DNA of 32,997 bases, from positions 1-32,997 of the forward strand of contig JBBDQU010000038.1 in NCBI GenBank assembly GCA_040905865.1, given 5' to 3'. Positions 19,471-26,741 of the stretch are shown piece after piece. This stretch comes from Alphaproteobacteria bacterium (GTDB lineage Bacteria > Pseudomonadota > Alphaproteobacteria > UBA8366 > GCA-2717185). Each line of letters opens with the position of its first letter. Positions within the stretch are counted from its first letter, which is position 1. The notes under the pieces are model-generated. The model saw only the letters and a program-made list of their open reading frames with translations. It was not told where the DNA came from and ran no database searches. The translations under genes were made by a program, and so were the position numbers.

Positions 19471-22377
19471 ATGCCCAAGAGGCAACCGCCGCCGAAACCC
19501 GAGAGCAGTCCGCCAGCGCCGGATTCGCCCGGCGGGCCGACGACTTTTTCCGTTGTCGGCATCGGCGCGTCGGCGGGCGGACTCGACGCCTGCAGGAAGT
19601 TGCTGGCTGCCCTGCCGTCGGGCGATGGCCTGGCGTTAATCCTGATCCAGCATCTCGATCCGACACATGAAAGCATGATGGTGGAACTGCTGTCCGGCTC
19701 GACCGCCATGACCGTGCAGCAGGCCGCCCAGGGCATGACGGTGGAGCGCAATCATGTTTATGTCATTCCACCCGGTTTCTACCTTTCCGTTGCGGATGAC
19801 GTCTTGCATCTCTCGCGTCCCGAGGCGCGTCACGGCGCGCGGATGCCGTTCGATTTCCTGCTGCATTCCCTGGCCGAAGCCTATGGCGAGCGCGCCGTCT
19901 GCGTTGTGCTGTCAGGGACGGGCGCGGATGGCTCCATCGGCTTGAAGGCGGTCAGCGACAGAGGCGGCCTCGTCATTGCGCAGGACCCGGAAGAAGCCGC
20001 CTATGACGGTATGCCGCAAAGCGCGATCGTGACCGGTCTGGTCCGGTATGTCCTGCCGTTGGCGGATATTCCCGGAGCGCTTCTCAACCACGCCGCAGGT
20101 AAAGAAACCGCCACCGGCCAGGACATGCCGCCGTCCGGGTGTGGCAAAGAGATCGGTTTGTCGCAGGTTGGTTTGTCGCAGGTTATAGAGCTTCTCCATA
20201 CAAGGAACGGCCACAATTTCAGCAAGTACAAGGCGGGCACGCTGGAGCGCCGGATCGGGCGGCGCATGGCGTCGCTCGGCCTGGAGGGCGATACGGACCG
20301 CTACATGGCGCTTCTGCGAAACGACCCTGTCGAAATCGATCTGCTTGCAAGGGACCTGCTGATTCACGTCACCAGTTTCTTTCGCGATCCGGAGGTTTTC
20401 GAATTTCTGTCCGAAACGGTTATCCCCGACCTTGTGAATAGTCTGGGCCCCGGCCAGCCGATCCGTATCTGGGTTGCCGGATGCAGCACGGGCGAAGAAA
20501 CCTATTCGCTGGCGATGCTGTTTCGCGAAAAAATAGTTCAAATGAAGAGCAATGCCAGGCTGCAGATTTTCGCGTCGGATCTCGATGCGGAGGCAATTGC
20601 GCAAGCGCGTGAAGGCCTGTATCCCGCAACGATATCGAACGATATTTCACCGGATCGTCTCAAACGCTTTTTTTCGAAGGAAGAGCAGGGTTACCGTGTC
20701 CTGCCCGAACTGCGCGATCCGGTTCTGTTCACGGTACAGAACGTACTGGCGGACCCGCCTTTTTCGCGTCTGGACCTGGTTTCCTGCCGGAACCTGCTGA
20801 TCTACCTTAAACCCGAGGCGCAGGCCCAGGTCATTTCGCAGTTCCATTTCGCCCTGCGCCAGGGCGGGATACTGCTGCTCGGCGGATCTGAAACGGTTGG
20901 CAACGACGACGAACGATTTGCCGTCGTCTCCAAGCCCCTGCGCGTCTATCGGCATATCGGCCGCCGTCGCCCCGGCGAATTCGGGGTGGCGCTGAGGTCA
21001 GGCGAGGGTGTTCGGCCGAATGCGCGGCCGGATTCGACGGCGGCGCCCTCGTATCAGGAGGTTCTCGCCGATCTTTGTCGGAATCTCGTGCTGGAGTCCT
21101 ATGCGCCGGCGGCAATATTGATCAACCGGGATCACGAGTGCCTCTTTTTCCTGGGTCCGACGAACCGGTATCTGCAAGTTGCGACAGGATACCCGACACA
21201 CGATCTGCTTGCCATGGTCGGCGGCGATCTGCGCACCAGGCTGCGCTCGGCCATTCAGCAGGCGACGCAAACAGGCAGCCGGGTCGACGTTTCAGGCTGC
21301 GAAAGCCGGCAGGGCCGCAAGCGGGAATATTTCGATATTGCCGTCGAGCCGGTAGAGCACGAGGGAAGGGAACTGCTGCTGATCTGCTTCTTCGACCAAC
21401 CGGCCCGGAAGGCGCCGCGCCAGCGGCCGATACCGTCGGAAGAAATGTCGCGAGTGGCGGAGCTTGAACGGGAACTGCAAGCGACGCGGATGGAACTCGA
21501 GGGAGCCATCGTCAATCTGGAGAATTCGAGCCAGAAGCAGAAGGCCGTCAATCAGGAAGCGCTCTCCATCAACGAGGAATACCAGTCGACGAACGAGGAA
21601 CTGGAAACCTCGAAGGAGGAATTGCAGTCGCTGAACGAGGAGCTTACCGCCCTCAATACCCAGTTGCACGAAACCCTCGAACAGCAGCGCACCACCGGCG
21701 ACGACCTGCAGAACATCCTGTACAGCACGGATGTCGCGACGCTGTTCCTCGACCTGAACCTCAGGATCCGGTTCTTCACACCGGCATCCAGATCGATGTT
21801 CAACGTCATTCCCAGCGATATCGGGCGTCCGATTGCCGACCTCAGTTCACTCGCCAGTGACGGCCATCTGGAGACTGATTCCCTGGCCGTGATTGCGACG
21901 CATGAATTGCAGGAACGCGAAATCCAGTGTCCGGGAGACATCTGGTATATTCGTCGCATCCTGCCCTACCGCGCCCAGGGAAACAGTGTCGAAGGCGTGG
22001 TCATTACCTTCACGGACATTACCGAACAAAAAAAAATAGCCGAGGCGCTGAACGTGGCGGTGGCGATGGCGGATCAGGCCAATATGGCGAAAACGCGGTT
22101 TCTCGCCGCCGCCAGCCACGACTTGCGCCAGCCGCTGCAGACACTGGCATTGCTGCAGGGAATTCTGGCGAAGACGGTCCAGGACGAAGAGGCGCAGAAA
22201 CTGATCGCACGGATCGACGAGACTTTGGGCGCCATGGCCCGCATGCTCAATGCATTGCTCGATATAAATGAAATCGAGGCGGGGACGCTCCTTGCCGAGA
22301 AGTCGGATTTCCCGATCGACGAACTGATCGACCGGCTGCGGGACGAATTCGGCTACTACGCCCAGGCAATGGGCTAG
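19471..22377 (+). CDS. CheB-CheR-PAS-HisKA fusion, N-terminal part before an in-frame amber codon
   Basis: 968 residues. Residues 25-205 are a CheB methylesterase domain with triad Ser34 (GASAGG), His61 (IQHLD) and Asp153 (SGTGADG). Residues about 235-500 are a CheR methyltransferase domain (LLIHVTSFFRD, WVAGCSTGEETYSLA, SDLDAEAI, LVSCRNLLIYL). Then come a long coiled coil (NEEYQSTNEELETSKEELQS), a PAS domain, and a HisKA dimerisation domain with His883 (AASHDLRQPLQTLALLQ). The frame stops at TAG 22375-22377, just after the two-helix domain, and the same frame continues into the missing ATPase and receivers (next entry). The TAG stands where the family normally has Leu (MG-L-EFR), a one-base change from TTG. 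AAGGA precedes the ATG. Alone, this product could not autophosphorylate. Confidence 0.9.
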   Translation: MPKRQPPPKPESSPPAPDSPGGPTTFSVVGIGASAGGLDACRKLLAALPSGDGLALILIQHLDPTHESMMVELLSGSTAMTVQQAAQGMTVERNHVYVIPPGFYLSVADDVLHLSRPEARHGARMPFDFLLHSLAEAYGERAVCVVLSGTGADGSIGLKAVSDRGGLVIAQDPEEAAYDGMPQSAIVTGLVRYVLPLADIPGALLNHAAGKETATGQDMPPSGCGKEIGLSQVGLSQVIELLHTRNGHNFSKYKAGTLERRIGRRMASLGLEGDTDRYMALLRNDPVEIDLLARDLLIHVTSFFRDPEVFEFLSETVIPDLVNSLGPGQPIRIWVAGCSTGEETYSLAMLFREKIVQMKSNARLQIFASDLDAEAIAQAREGLYPATISNDISPDRLKRFFSKEEQGYRVLPELRDPVLFTVQNVLADPPFSRLDLVSCRNLLIYLKPEAQAQVISQFHFALRQGGILLLGGSETVGNDDERFAVVSKPLRVYRHIGRRRPGEFGVALRSGEGVRPNARPDSTAAPSYQEVLADLCRNLVLESYAPAAILINRDHECLFFLGPTNRYLQVATGYPTHDLLAMVGGDLRTRLRSAIQQATQTGSRVDVSGCESRQGRKREYFDIAVEPVEHEGRELLLICFFDQPARKAPRQRPIPSEEMSRVAELERELQATRMELEGAIVNLENSSQKQKAVNQEALSINEEYQSTNEELETSKEELQSLNEELTALNTQLHETLEQQRTTGDDLQNILYSTDVATLFLDLNLRIRFFTPASRSMFNVIPSDIGRPIADLSSLASDGHLETDSLAVIATHELQEREIQCPGDIWYIRRILPYRAQGNSVEGVVITFTDITEQKKIAEALNVAVAMADQANMAKTRFLAAASHDLRQPLQTLALLQGILAKTVQDEEAQKLIARIDETLGAMARMLNALLDINEIEAGTLLAEKSDFPIDELIDRLRDEFGYYAQAMG
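20155..20184 (+). repeat. 15-bp in-frame tandem duplication (GLSQV twice)
   Basis: GGTTTGTCGCAGGTT occurs twice head to tail, perfectly, in the linker between the CheB and CheR domains, adding five residues (GLSQV-GLSQV). A perfect repeat at the DNA level suggests a recent slippage event. Confidence 0.9.
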
Positions 22378-22407
22378 GAATTCCGTACTGTATCCTGCGG
22401 GCTGATC

Positions 22408-23913
22408 GTGCACAGCGATCCGCGGCTGCTGGAACAGATGATGCGAAATCTGCTTTCGAACGCGATGAAGTACACCAGGAACGGCAAGGTTCTTTTGGGA
22501 TGCCGGCGACATTCGACGACGCTCAGCATCGAGGTTCTGGATACCGGCATCGGCATCGCCGAAAGCGACCTCAAGGCAATCTTCGAGGAATACCACCAGG
22601 TCGACAATGAAGCGCGAGAGCGCAGCCGCGGCCTCGGTCTCGGCCTTGCGATCGTGCAACGGCTCGGAAACCTGTTGGGCCACGAATTGCGGGTACGTTC
22701 GCTACCCGGCAAGGGATCGGTGTTTACCATCGATGTTGCAATGGCGACGGAAGGAACGGTATTGCCCCGGCGCGGCGAAGCGCCGGACGAGGCTGTGCCG
22801 GAAAAAATTGCGCGCACGGCCACGATCCTGGTTATCGAAGACGATCCGGATGTCCGCGAGTTACTGGAACTCCTACTGAAGAGCGAAGGGTATCGTGCGA
22901 TCCTCGCCGAGGATGGCGCCGCCGCCCTGGCATTGCCGATGCATGCCGCGGACCGTCCCGACCTTATCCTGGCCGATTTCAACCTGCCGGGTGGTTTGAA
23001 CGGAATCGAAGTTGCCACGGCCCTCAGGGAAAAGATCAACAAGAATATCCCGGCAATCGTGCTGACCGGCGACATTTCAATCGCGGCCCTGAAGGAGATT
23101 TCAAGGCATAACTGCCTGTATGCCAGCAAGCCGGTCAAGGCTCGCGAGTTGTCAAAGAGCGTCGCGGCGCTGCTGGCGGGCGATTCCGGGGCGGAGCAGT
23201 CTGAACCGGTTTCGACGCGACCGCCGGTCGCGTCGGATGCACCGATAGTCCCGGTTCCGGCGCGACCGCCAGTCGCGTCGGATGCACCGATAATCCACGT
23301 CGTGGACGATGACAGCGATGTCTGCGACGCCATTCGCAGCGTTCTTGAACTGGCGGGCCAGACGGTCGAGATCTATTCCAGTAGCGAAGACTTTCTCTCC
23401 GCCTATAAGCCCGGTGGCGACGCATGTCTGCTGATAGACATCCTGCTGCCCGGCATGCAGGGGATCGACCTGCTGCAAAAGCTGCGCACCGAAAGCAACA
23501 ACGTTCCCGCCATCGTGATTACCGGTAACGGCGATGTCGCAACGGCGGTTCGGGCGATGAAGGCGGGAGCCCAGGACTTTATCGAAAAGCCGATAAGCGG
23601 CGAGGAATTACTGGCGAGCATCGAGCGCGCGCGCGGGATGCACCGTGGTACAGCCGCTGCGTCGGTCTGGCGGGAAAAAGCGGCGCGGAAGATTATCGGT
23701 CTTACGTCGCGGCAGCGCCAGATCATGGATCTCGTGCTTGCCGGGCACCCGAACAAGAACATCGCCGCGGATCTGGGCATCAGCCAGCGCACGGTGGAAA
23801 ACCATCGCGCCGCCGTCATGAAAAGGACCGGCGCCAGGTCGCTGCCGGCACTGGCGCGAATGGCGGTCGCCGCTTCAGGCCATCCGGACGACGAATCGTC
23901 GTCCGGGGCGTAG
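22408..23913 (+). CDS. HATPase - REC - REC - LuxR-type HTH (C-terminal part of the interrupted CheB/CheR kinase)
   Basis: 501 residues from a GTG at 22408, in the same frame as the preceding gene. It contains a kinase ATP-binding domain (LLEQMMRNLLSNAMKYT, DTGIGI, GLGLGLAIV), a receiver with Asp190 (LILADFNLPGG), a duplicated RPPVASDAPI linker, and then a FixJ-like module: a receiver with Asp344 (LLIDILLPGM) and a LuxR-type helix-turn-helix (GLTSRQRQIMDLVLAGHPNKNIAADLGISQRTVENH). Without the amber codon, the protein would be 1480 residues and carry a whole phosphorelay to DNA binding. Translation could arise by readthrough, by restart at GTG 22408 (weak GCGGG upstream), or not at all. It is annotated separately because the TAG is in the sequence. 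Confidence 0.85.
   Translation: MHSDPRLLEQMMRNLLSNAMKYTRNGKVLLGCRRHSTTLSIEVLDTGIGIAESDLKAIFEEYHQVDNEARERSRGLGLGLAIVQRLGNLLGHELRVRSLPGKGSVFTIDVAMATEGTVLPRRGEAPDEAVPEKIARTATILVIEDDPDVRELLELLLKSEGYRAILAEDGAAALALPMHAADRPDLILADFNLPGGLNGIEVATALREKINKNIPAIVLTGDISIAALKEISRHNCLYASKPVKARELSKSVAALLAGDSGAEQSEPVSTRPPVASDAPIVPVPARPPVASDAPIIHVVDDDSDVCDAIRSVLELAGQTVEIYSSSEDFLSAYKPGGDACLLIDILLPGMQGIDLLQKLRTESNNVPAIVITGNGDVATAVRAMKAGAQDFIEKPISGEELLASIERARGMHRGTAAASVWREKAARKIIGLTSRQRQIMDLVLAGHPNKNIAADLGISQRTVENHRAAVMKRTGARSLPALARMAVAASGHPDDESSSGA
23217..23296 (+). repeat. 45-bp near-perfect tandem duplication in the REC-REC linker
   Basis: A 45-bp unit starting GCGACCGCC is repeated at 23217 and 23262. The first 35 bp of each copy differ at only two positions. 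It encodes RPPVASDAPI twice, extending the proline-rich linker between the two receivers. Confidence 0.88.
23884..23906 (+). terminator. Near-perfect 23-bp palindrome across the end of the FixJ-like coding region
   Basis: CCGGACGACGA (23884-23894), one central A, then TCGTCGTCCGG (23896-23906) give an 11-bp perfect inverted repeat. It overlaps the last codons (PDDESSSGA) and ends seven bases before the stop. It can form a strong GC-rich hairpin, but no T tract follows, so it may act as a factor-dependent terminator, an mRNA 3' stabiliser or a DNA-binding palindrome. Confidence 0.5.
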
Positions 23914-24247
23914 CAGGGATACGGCTGCCCAATAGGTATTATCCGAACCTGCCGCGATAGCGGCTAAGCCTGTTATGCTGCCTTTCAGACATTGGTTCAG
24001 AGCCGCTACCGAGCGATGCAGACGCAAGTGTCAGAAACCGACCCCTGCAAATCGGGAGGAACGTAGCGAACGGGATCACGTGCTGTCATCGGCGATCAGC
24101 CGGCATTGTAACGGGGGACAACGCCGTGGAGTGGAGTCCGGCTGAAAACAGGTATTACAGGACGGTGTCTCGCTACGGTGCGGGAAGCGGGAACAGGCCC
24201 AACCGGGTGGTGTTCCACGTGAACGCCGGGAAAGGACCGAACCGAAA
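23914..24247. other. Intergenic region with two near-consensus EcfG-type sites
   Basis: About 330 bp without a convincing gene. On the plus strand GGAAC-N16-CGTG starts at 24059, and GGAAC-N16-TGTT lies around 24192-24216. Each differs by one base from the EcfG consensus in the -10 element. The second ends about 30 bp before the ATG at 24248 and overlaps a GGAACA...TGTTCC inverted repeat. The sites are suggestive but weaker than the four exact sites elsewhere. Confidence 0.4.
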
Positions 24248-24532
24248 ATGCGGGATCGCTGGTCTGTACGATTGGCCTGGACGGTCTGGATTGTCGCTTC
24301 CCTTGCGATCTGGGGTGCGATCTTCGCTGTTCTCGCGTTCCTTGCCTGTCACGATGAAAATATTGCCGTGGGCGCCATCCCGCCCGCAATCGTCAATCCC
24401 AGCCTCGAGCCGAACGGAGGCGGTTCATATGTCAATCGCATCAACGGGTGGACGGAAACAGCGACCTTTCGAGGCCACGCCGACCGCTGCCACCTTCTTA
24501 CAGCAGAGAGCCCATGTCATGTCACAGGTTAA
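24248..24532 (+). CDS. Possible small membrane protein overlapping the sugar-transferase-like gene
   Basis: A 94-codon frame beginning MRDRWSVRLAWTVWIVASLA, followed by WGAIFAVLAFLACHD, which forms one clear membrane helix after a basic N-terminus. The rest (AIPPAIVNPSLEPNGGG...) is polar with no known motif. AAAGGA lies upstream of the ATG, and a near-consensus EcfG site ends about 30 bp upstream. Its last 104 bp overlap the 24429 gene in another frame; only one of the two may be real along that stretch, or the gene may end functionally after the helix. I do not recognise a family. Confidence 0.45.
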   Translation: MRDRWSVRLAWTVWIVASLAIWGAIFAVLAFLACHDENIAVGAIPPAIVNPSLEPNGGGSYVNRINGWTETATFRGHADRCHLLTAESPCHVTG

Positions 24533-24881
24533 ATCGGTTTCAGGACCTCAAGTTAAAGTTTCACGGAGTGGCCAGATCCTTGCGGCTTTGTGTCTGGCTT
24601 TCTTCCTTCCGTTGCTGTTGCTGATCGCAATTCTGATCAAATGCGGATCCCCGGGGCCGGCGTTGCTGAAGCGCGACAGGGCTGACCGGGATGGCGATTC
24701 GGTTATGTATTGGGAGTTTCGCATGGTCGCCATCAACGCGCGAAACGGCGACAATACAATACGCTCCTGTCCGCCGTATACGGCGTTGGGCGCTTTTCTG
24801 GGCCGGACCCGGCTGGGGCAGATACCCGCACTTCTGAATGTATTGCGCGGTGAGGCGTCATGGGATGCATTGCTCGATTGA
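24429..24881 (+). CDS. Truncated, probably inactive sugar-transferase-like membrane protein
   Basis: A 150-residue protein resembling the N-terminal two-thirds of bacterial sugar (undecaprenyl-phosphate glycosyl-1-phosphate) transferases. It has a hydrophobic segment (ILAALCLAFFLPLLLLIAIL), then CGSPGPALLKRDRADRDG (family SPGPVFF.QERVG..G), EFRMV (family KFRSM) and LGRTRLGQIPALLNVLRGE (family RRTSLDELPQLWNVLKGE). The catalytic Asp-Glu pair of that last motif is Gly-Gln here, and the VGPRP block with the C-terminal end is missing. It is therefore likely non-catalytic, either a relic or a repurposed membrane protein. I chose ATG 24429 because GGAGG lies eight bases upstream; ATG 24519 is an alternative start closer to the family N-terminus. 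Confidence 0.65.
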   Translation: MSIASTGGRKQRPFEATPTAATFLQQRAHVMSQVKSVSGPQVKVSRSGQILAALCLAFFLPLLLLIAILIKCGSPGPALLKRDRADRDGDSVMYWEFRMVAINARNGDNTIRSCPPYTALGAFLGRTRLGQIPALLNVLRGEASWDALLD

Positions 24882-25288: not shown

Positions 25289-25615
25289 TCGGCATCAATG
25301 CGCCCATCGGGATTCTCCCGCCGCGAAACCGCCGCTGGTTTCACTGACAATCCGTCACGGGACGCCTGACGATACCGGCCGCAGGCATGCCCGGGGCCGC
25401 ATCGGCCATGCCGGTTCCGTTTCAATCTGGGTAGTTTCCGAGCCTGATGCCGTGGTTGGAATAATTCTAGTCTTCACCAATTCCGATGCAATTGGAAACC
25501 CTGACCGAACACGCATTGCCCAATAATCATTCCAGACTGCGGGAATTCCAGTCGGGATATGGCGATGCAAGAAAGTTCTGGAAACAGGCCATGAAATGCA
25601 GAATTGGGGCAAGCA
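25289..25615. other. Intergenic region upstream of the ECF sigma gene
   Basis: About 330 bp without a convincing gene. It contains GC-rich nested inverted repeats around 25374-25413 (ACCGGC...GCCGGT with GGCC-N5-GGCC inside), possibly ending the 24977 transcript. It also has a palindrome CCAATT-N7-AATTGG at 25477-25495 in a more AT-rich stretch that could be an operator or promoter element for the sigma gene. No exact EcfG-type promoter was found, so autoregulation by that consensus is not supported. Confidence 0.4.
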
Positions 25616-26143
25616 ATGAACGAAGTCGTACAGCATATCGAAAATCACATTCCCGCTCTACGACGATATGCGCTGGTCCTGTCGCGCGATGCGACAGACG
25701 CGGATGACCTGGTTCAGAATTGCCTCCTGCGTGCATTGAGCAAGGCGCATCTCTACAAGTGCGGCACCAACCTTCGCGCCTGGCTTCTTACAATCCTGCA
25801 CAATCTTTATATGAGCGAGGTTCGTCGCAACGCGAAATGGAAACGGCCTGCAAACCCCGAGGGCGCGCTGGAAAAGTTGTCCGTACCGGCTTCCCAGCCG
25901 TCAGCAGTCATGTTACGCGCCGTCGCTCGGGCCATGATGGCATTGCCCGATCAACAGCGGAAGATCCTGTACCGCATCGGCGTGGACGGAGAATCCTACA
26001 AGGAAGTGGCCAAACAGTTCGATCTTCCGGTAGGCACCGTCAAATCCGGTTGTTACCGGGCACGAACGACGCTGCTGTTTATCCTGAGCAAAGGCGAGGA
26101 CAGCCACACAGCGTCTGACTGTTGGCGCGACAATACACAATGA
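25616..26143 (+). CDS. ECF sigma factor, EcfG-like
   Basis: A 175-residue sigma-70-family ECF factor. Region 2 is present (DATDADDLVQNCLLRALSKA, GTNLRAWLLTILHNLYMSEV), then a short linker (EKLSVPASQPSAV), then region 4 (ALPDQQRKILYRIGVDGESYKEVA and LPVGTVKSGCYRARTTLL). The GTNLRAWLFTILHN-like segment and the overall pattern resemble EcfG/ECF26-type factors of alphaproteobacteria. EcfG directs the general stress response and recognises GGAAC-N16/17-CGTT, which occurs four times in this window. I chose ATG 25616 because GGGG lies upstream; a TTG at 25604 is in frame. The last 15 residues (EDSHTASDCWRDNTQ) are read from IS630 end sequence, so the native C-terminus was probably replaced just after region 4. 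NepR and PhyR are not in the window. Confidence 0.85.
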   Translation: MNEVVQHIENHIPALRRYALVLSRDATDADDLVQNCLLRALSKAHLYKCGTNLRAWLLTILHNLYMSEVRRNAKWKRPANPEGALEKLSVPASQPSAVMLRAVARAMMALPDQQRKILYRIGVDGESYKEVAKQFDLPVGTVKSGCYRARTTLLFILSKGEDSHTASDCWRDNTQ

Positions 26144-26622
26144 ATGGCGCATGACGGTACAATGCGCCGCTGGAAGGTTCCGCCAGGATCCTTGCTTGAG
26201 CTTGGAGAACATCTCCTCGATGGGGGTCAGGTCGGGTGAGTAGGGCGGCAGGAAGAACAGCCTGACCCGCCGCCTTGAGGCGTTCGCGCACTTGGCTTCC
26301 CCTTGTGGCTGCCGAGATTGACGACGACGATGGCGCCCGGCTCCAGCTCGGGGATCAGGCACTGCTTGACCCACGCGGTGAAGCTGTCGCCGTTGATCGG
26401 CCCGTCGAGCACGCAAGGCGCGACGATGCCGTCGTGCCACAGGCCGGCGATGAAGGTCACCGTTTTCCAGTAGCCGTGCGGTATCTTGTCGATCAACGGC
26501 TGGCCCCTGGTGTTCCAGCCATGCGTGCGCGTCATTTTGGTCTTGGCCCGGAGCCTGCCCTCGGGCTCGACCCGAGGGTCTCGTCAATGAAGACCATGCG
26601 CCTCGGGTCTATCCGCCGCTGG
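26100..26622 (-). pseudogene. IS630-family transposase, decayed catalytic half
   Basis: Minus-strand pieces in different frames read RRIDPRRMVFIDETLGSSPR, then MTRTHGWNTRGQPLIDKIPH, YWKTVTFIAGLWHDGIVAPC, LDGPINGDSFTAWVKQCLIP, VVVNLGSHKG, and after another frameshift RLFFLPPYSPDLTPIEEMFSKLKQ. This is the DDE catalytic half of an IS630 transposase. The family block VVMDNLGSHKG reads VVVNLGSHKG here, so the second catalytic Asp is lost. The N-terminal half and the end after KLKQ are missing. Two or more frameshifts make it non-functional. Its left end runs into the tail of the sigma factor gene, and its right end abuts the IS3 fragment. Confidence 0.8.
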
Positions 26623-26741
26623 CGCCAAAACCAGCGGGATCGCCTGCGCGCGAACTTCCGCCGGATATCGTGTCGATTGTGTTCCCATGATAGCTCCTTC
26701 TTCTCACAAGTCGGAACCTCCGGGAAACCCGGGGCGGTTCA
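26623..26741 (-). mobile_element. IS3-family left-end fragment with the start of orfA
   Basis: On the minus strand a terminal-repeat-like sequence TGAACCGCCCCGGGTTTCCC starts at 26741. AGGAG and an ATG follow at 26688, opening MGTQSTRYPAEVRAQAIPLV, which matches the N-terminus of IS3-group OrfA (family RYPAEVRERAVRLV). After about 22 codons similarity ends and IS630 sequence begins. It is a short insertion-sequence stub. Confidence 0.6.

Follow-up and report, generated by a model that had tools for sequence, protein, structure and literature searches.

Background

Histidine kinases whose phosphoacceptor and ATPase domains are carried by two polypeptides are already known. According to passages of one report (PMC3591291), CheA3/CheA4 and the separated EnvZ domains are of this kind, the HisKA and HATPase domains of EnvZ retain activity on separate polypeptides, and 1,556 of the 42,417 HisKA proteins in a database count were without HATPase; Hik36/Hik43 is presented as a natural split kinase in a passage of another (PMC7656254). 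Bacterial genes that contain an in-frame stop and have a ratio of nonsynonymous to synonymous substitution rates (dN/dS) below 1 are, according to parts of Belinky et al. 2021 (PMC7918605), widespread, and many such genes are by that account under purifying selection. Here we analyse a gene for a giant hybrid kinase, located at 19471-23913 on the + strand of a 32,997-nucleotide stretch of an alphaproteobacterial draft genome (assembly GCA_040905865.1, contig JBBDQU010000038.1; this whole stretch is called the window), whose frame is broken by an in-frame TAG at 22375..22377. The TAG is probably a recent, ordinary nonsense mutation in a known hybrid-kinase gene that is accessory in its lineage.

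The locus resembles CheA3/CheA4, Hik36/Hik43 and the separated EnvZ in that the phosphoacceptor and ATPase domains would sit on two polypeptides. It differs from CheA3/CheA4 and Hik36/Hik43, which are separate genes, in that the cut is inside the predicted ATPase (CA) fold and the second part has no clear start signal. With the nonsense-interrupted genes, as they appear in parts of PMC7918605, it shares an in-frame stop opposite an amino acid with well-aligned flanks, the difference being that the stop in the window was found in one genome only. No title devoted to the CheB-CheR-PAS hybrid kinase family was found among the titles and abstract openings of the literature searched; "a CheB-CheR hybrid" is named in passing in a section of one genome paper (PMC2890560).

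Results and discussion

One gene with a single in-frame TAG

The frame running from ATG 19471 to a final TAG at 23911-23913 comprises 1,480 codons, the in-frame TAG included, and the given sequence has, as a preliminary description of the same stretch stated, one interior stop in it. Upstream of the ATG at 19471 is a Shine-Dalgarno-like sequence whose duplex with the 16S tail has an energy of -6.3 kcal/mol. The first open part (19471..22377, + strand, 968 amino acids), which terminates at the in-frame TAG, contains CheB_methylest, CheR_N, CheR, PAS_10/PAS_4 and HisKA; the second (22378..23913, + strand, 511 amino acids), which terminates in TAG, contains HATPase_c, two Response_reg domains and GerE (LuxR/FixJ-type DNA-binding), each Pfam match being above its cut-off. 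The last receiver together with the helix-turn-helix scored 237 bits against an NCBIfam FixJ cut-off of 255, i.e. slightly below it.

Across both open parts the domains follow the order of the hybrid-kinase family (CheB, CheR_N, CheR, PAS_10, HisKA, HATPase_c, two REC, GerE), and the trait of the CheB-CheR-PAS hybrid kinases that the window copy lacks, owing to TAG 22375, is the single polypeptide. In Phyllobacterium sp. 628 the whole domain series is found, identically ordered, in one protein of 1,475 amino acids (WP_188346366.1, plasmid p_2, "chemotaxis protein CheB"), which is 57.6% identical to the product of the window gene across 98% of the query and differs from it in having an uninterrupted reading frame. 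Judged by this domain comparison, 19471-23913 is therefore one gene of the alphaproteobacterial CheB-CheR-PAS-HisKA-HATPase-REC-REC-LuxR family, interrupted by one stop. The view that the domains on either side fit one protein is thus upheld both by the Pfam domain set and by relatives that carry this set on one polypeptide.

The computed support for a nonsense mutation consists of the stop itself, the intact remainder of the gene, its family, the absence of the stop from relatives (0/32) and its place in the predicted ATPase fold. The following sequence of events is envisaged. A gene encoding a roughly 1,480-residue hybrid kinase, with a CheB methylesterase, a CheR methyltransferase, PAS, HisKA, HATPase, two receivers and a FixJ-like DNA-binding domain, would carry a recent nonsense mutation in the sequenced genome. 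Translation would stop after 968 residues and yield a CheB-CheR-PAS-DHp protein with an incomplete ATPase and without output domains, so that kinase, receiver and DNA-binding functions would be lost or present only at trace level. Measured against the distant relatives, the mutation would be too recent for the downstream part to show decay.

The stop codon in relatives

The codon aligned to TAG 22375 was compared in 32 relatives (a duplicate row, L033, was removed, and L052 ends short of the site). It is a sense codon in all of them: Leu in 30, Ile in one and Val in one. The Leu that the preliminary description had assigned to this position agrees with these counts. Its proposal of a one-base change from TTG has no basis for inference, the Leu codons being CTN in 28 relatives, TTG in one and TTA in one. 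The stop thus stands where relatives have a sense codon, as a nonsense allele does, and the conservation of TAG at the same codon that would characterize recoding was seen in none of the relatives. Because one open frame with one domain set is interrupted at a codon that is sense throughout the relatives, a nonsense mutation is favoured.

Twenty-six of the 28 full-length relatives have no interior stop, and the other two have one each. In L056, the top-scoring full-length relative of the class search and the sole match at E <= 1e-250 among seven genomes of its family, it is a TAG (L056:3058-3060). This TAG was considered as a shared stop and rejected, since it maps to query position 529, in the linker between CheR and PAS. 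In L054, a Methylocapsa polymorpha plasmid, it is a TGA (L054:3808-3810) and the gene is annotated as two coding sequences; a natural split of CheB and CheR into two genes was rejected here, as the TGA falls at the conserved beginning of CheR. These cases suggest that interior stops arise now and then, at different sites, in CheB-CheR-PAS hybrid kinases, in keeping with a sporadic loss of function of a long accessory gene. A far more speculative interpretation, which we regard as very improbable, is that giant CheB-CheR kinases recurrently carry a single in-frame stop as an expression throttle, low-level readthrough or reversible nonsense keeping the protein at trace level until needed. Its basis is the window gene and the two interrupted relatives, with three different stop sites.

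Position of the stop in the ATPase domain

The Pfam HATPase_c match starts only at 22417, because of which the stop seems to be inter-domain, and the preliminary description had placed it between HisKA and the ATPase domain. That placement is true of the Pfam match only. In an AlphaFold2 model spanning HisKA and the ATPase domain (built from a 30-row alignment, mean predicted local distance difference test score, pLDDT, 80.2; a residue is converted to DNA by 22048 + 3 x (residue - 1)), the stop codon is residue 110, flanked by a helix at 90-107 and a strand at 111-114, with a pLDDT of 88-94 in the local blocks. Solved isolated CA domains align to the model from residue 82-86 on, and the stop is 24-28 residues further in. 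The structures compared were ThkA 3a0y (residues 83-234, Z 19.5, root mean square deviation (rmsd) 2.2, 143 aligned), WalK 3sl2 (86-234, Z 19.5, rmsd 2.2, 140 aligned), CckA 5idm (83-236, Z 19.3, rmsd 2.5, 149 aligned) and LvrB 9ql9 (82-234, Z 18.6, rmsd 1.6, 135 aligned). In EnvZ chain 1bxd, which we take to be the isolated ATP-binding domain of EnvZ, 27 residues precede the residue matching profile position 108 in a profile search; this chain thus differs from the window's second part in beginning about 27 residues before the cut.

The CA fold extends approximately over 22303..22755 (+ strand, model residues 86-236) and has the TAG inside it. Since the CA domains align from residue 82-86, the first product would retain the strand and the helix with which the ATPase fold begins. 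On the predicted structure, the stop is therefore inside the ATPase fold and not between HisKA and the ATPase domain. A split kinase would be marked by a cut between DHp and CA with each half able to fold, and the model places the cut elsewhere. A general caution follows: the Pfam HATPase_c match begins well within the ATPase fold, and a stop that seems to be inter-domain may cut a domain.

Restart downstream of the stop

If the ATPase half were initiated separately, a CheB-CheR-PAS-HisKA protein and an ATPase-REC-REC-FixJ protein could meet in trans as a two-protein kinase, for which the natural split kinases and the activity of EnvZ HisKA and HATPase on separate polypeptides offer precedents, as far as passages of PMC3591291 and PMC7656254 describe them. 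The preliminary description had proposed a restart at GTG 22408 (22408..22410, + strand). This codon is present, and the sequence upstream of it does not surpass what generally precedes internal in-frame ATG and GTG codons: its duplex energy with the 16S tail is -2.5 kcal/mol, as compared to a mean of -2.96 for 53 such codons of the same gene, so that the start-site signal is not above background. ATG 22438 and ATG 22441 reached -3.3 kcal/mol each, and TTG 22495 -7.6 kcal/mol, though it is deep within the ATPase domain. A weak ribosome site is compatible with a start, as the 13 open reading frame (ORF) starts picked in the window span -1.1 to -11.4 kcal/mol and two of them are weaker than GTG 22408, which makes the restart test a weak one.

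At the column of GTG 22408, GTG is found in 3 of 32 relatives. The codon is model residue 121, and a start there would, in addition to the part already cut off by the stop, remove the strand predicted at 111-114. A promoter-like site was searched for at 22200-22700 and none was found; an Rfam scan of the window at gathering scores gave no match. Because a restart loses still more of the fold, the start signal is at background level and the GTG is present in so few relatives, the two-protein design appears very unlikely, the more so with the predicted cut inside the CA fold, beyond the point where isolated CA domains begin.

Suppression, recoding and readthrough

Genome-wide recoding of TAG was considered and rejected, since TAG terminates 47 of 162 long ORFs (at least 400 codons, both strands, picked mechanically, a few possibly spurious) in twenty stretches of 20 kb and the window; within the window alone it ends 5 of the 18 ORFs taken as genes. 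An amber-suppressor tRNA, which the preliminary description had raised, was searched for in the genome with ARAGORN, and none of the 42 tRNA matches, all of them read, has a CUA anticodon. Ile-GAT, Ala-TGC and Leu-GAG tRNAs are also not listed among these matches, so that some tRNA genes may be missing from the draft. With the cut in the predicted CA fold, TAG serving as an ordinary terminator and a CUA tRNA not found among the matches, a nonsense mutation is again favoured.

In a search of the host genome for matches to the query, at least nine of the listed matches besides the window's own carry an interior stop. Six of these nine were inspected and no second interrupted kinase was found among them, five of the stops being at gene ends and one between two genes. 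Interrupted genes were also looked for by a codon-score scan of the 20 stretches of 20 kb and the window. The first thresholds returned two rows and missed the window's own gene; with thresholds reset to recover that gene, 19 adjacent in-frame pairs were obtained (9 TAG, 5 TGA, 5 TAA), in four of which the first ATG or GTG is at least 30 bases past the stop (two TAG including the window, one TAA, one TGA). An in-frame TAG at L126:9760 (+ strand) of the host genome has codon-like sequence on both sides and no ATG or GTG for 492 bases after it; it was flagged under the first thresholds of the scan and not under the reset ones.

A near-cognate tRNA might decode the TAG in some ribosomes, tolerated or as a regulatory device, giving a little full-length kinase and keeping the rest of the gene under selection. 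Constraint past the stop is indeed not relaxed (see below), the genes of two of the 28 full-length relatives are likewise open but for one interior stop, and in-frame stops with dN/dS below 1 are reportedly widespread in bacteria, to go by parts of PMC7918605. The base directly 3' of the TAG is a G, and according to sections of PMC11126739 a downstream G lowers the accuracy of termination. The same sections put TAG readthrough in E. coli reporters at a mean below 1% in the conditions shown. The lack of a CUA tRNA among the matches and the ordinary use of TAG as a terminator in this genome also speak against readthrough, as do the stops of L056 and L054, which are elsewhere and of which one is a TGA, so that neither position nor kind is conserved. 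We consider readthrough improbable.

Constraint downstream of the stop

Rates before and after the stop were compared with FastTree in a 29-sequence alignment of 923 columns before and 469 after it; L033, a second row for the L058 gene, and the incomplete rows L036, L052, L068, L070 and L072 were left out of the tree and of the rate counts. The terminal branch of the window gene is 0.432 before the stop and 0.408 after it, a ratio of 0.95, as compared to 1.10 for the whole tree and a range of 0.70-1.61 among its sequences. In columns where the other sequences are all identical, the window gene deviates once before the stop and not at all after it. No relaxed constraint past the stop was seen, on relatives too distant to date the event. 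At the resolution of distant relatives the downstream part does not appear decayed, which agrees equally with a mutation of recent date, with an error and with continued use; from the lack of excess divergence it follows that the stop arose recently, is an error or is tolerated. The downstream part not diverging faster, together with the absence of stops inside domain matches of the host genome (0 of 45 HATPase_c, 0 of 62 ABC_tran), favours a nonsense mutation.

Three points weigh against a nonsense mutation as the explanation. The absence of decay is equally expected if readthrough or restart still makes the downstream part. The full-architecture relatives are distant, about 43-60% identical, because of which the timing test has little power. 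Finally, the TAG is known from the assembled sequence alone, with which a sequencing error is compatible. Such an error, in sequencing or assembly, would mean that the true genome has a sense codon and an intact gene. It would suit a draft assembly of 85 contigs, a stop common to no relative examined and a remainder that is open and without excess divergence. The stop-free HATPase_c and ABC_tran matches argue against it, as they make the assembly not visibly error-rich, and a lone consensus substitution error is in general rarer than a real mutation. We judge an error to be unlikely.

The options listed in the preliminary description (sequencing error, fresh nonsense mutation, suppression or readthrough, true split) were the proper ones. 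A nonsense mutation is the best supported and most likely of them; it is followed by an error, then by readthrough, for which no suppressor tRNA was found among the 42 tRNA matches, and then by a true split, which is disfavoured, and the locus is most likely not a new two-part kinase type. As a further disrupted member of an already known gene family, it is at present of minor importance. Were the TAG borne out by reads and other strains, and peptides from beyond it found, readthrough in a signalling protein could be tested clearly on a natural example.

Distribution and surroundings of the gene

In a plasmid collection, 41 of the best 5,000 records span 80% or more of the query at a single location. 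In the class, at least 16 of 385 genomes, its own included, match at E <= 1e-250. None of the three other genomes of the genus matches at E <= 1e-150, although the kinase and receiver regions do have weaker matches there. In the family, one of ten other genomes (G005) matches at E <= 1e-150, over residues 27-868, with a frame of 1,484 amino acids, and the same genome is the only match at E <= 1e-200 among 42 other genomes scored in the order. As the genome searches scored part of the first-look candidates (13 per genome in the order, two per genome in the class), these counts are possibly low. With no match at E <= 1e-150 in the genus, and with family and order matched by G005 alone, the gene looks sporadic, i.e. 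accessory, in the host lineage.

Two paralogues are present in the same genome, one of 902 amino acids with CheB-CheR-PAS only (L006:1327-4035, - strand), in which no kinase domain was found by Pfam, and one with CheB-CheR-PAS-HWE_HK. As the former has just those domains, the CheB-CheR-PAS part of the 968-residue product could, by analogy, in principle stay active and keep a methylesterase/methyltransferase role.

Downstream of the kinase gene is a partial sugar transferase domain (24126-24881, + strand, profile 7-103 of 179), possibly a gene remnant. A transposase remnant, presumably of the IS630 type, is at 25916-26738 on the - strand, its DDE_3 match being split over two frames (profile 11-94 in one, 101-131 in the other). 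Such remnants nearby mildly favour ordinary decay and, together with the sporadic occurrence of the gene and the two full-length relatives with stops of their own, favour a nonsense mutation. An ECF-type sigma factor near the kinase gene (25604-26143, + strand), with PhyR_sigma2 and Sigma70_r4_2 matches, raises the possibility of a link to the general stress response.
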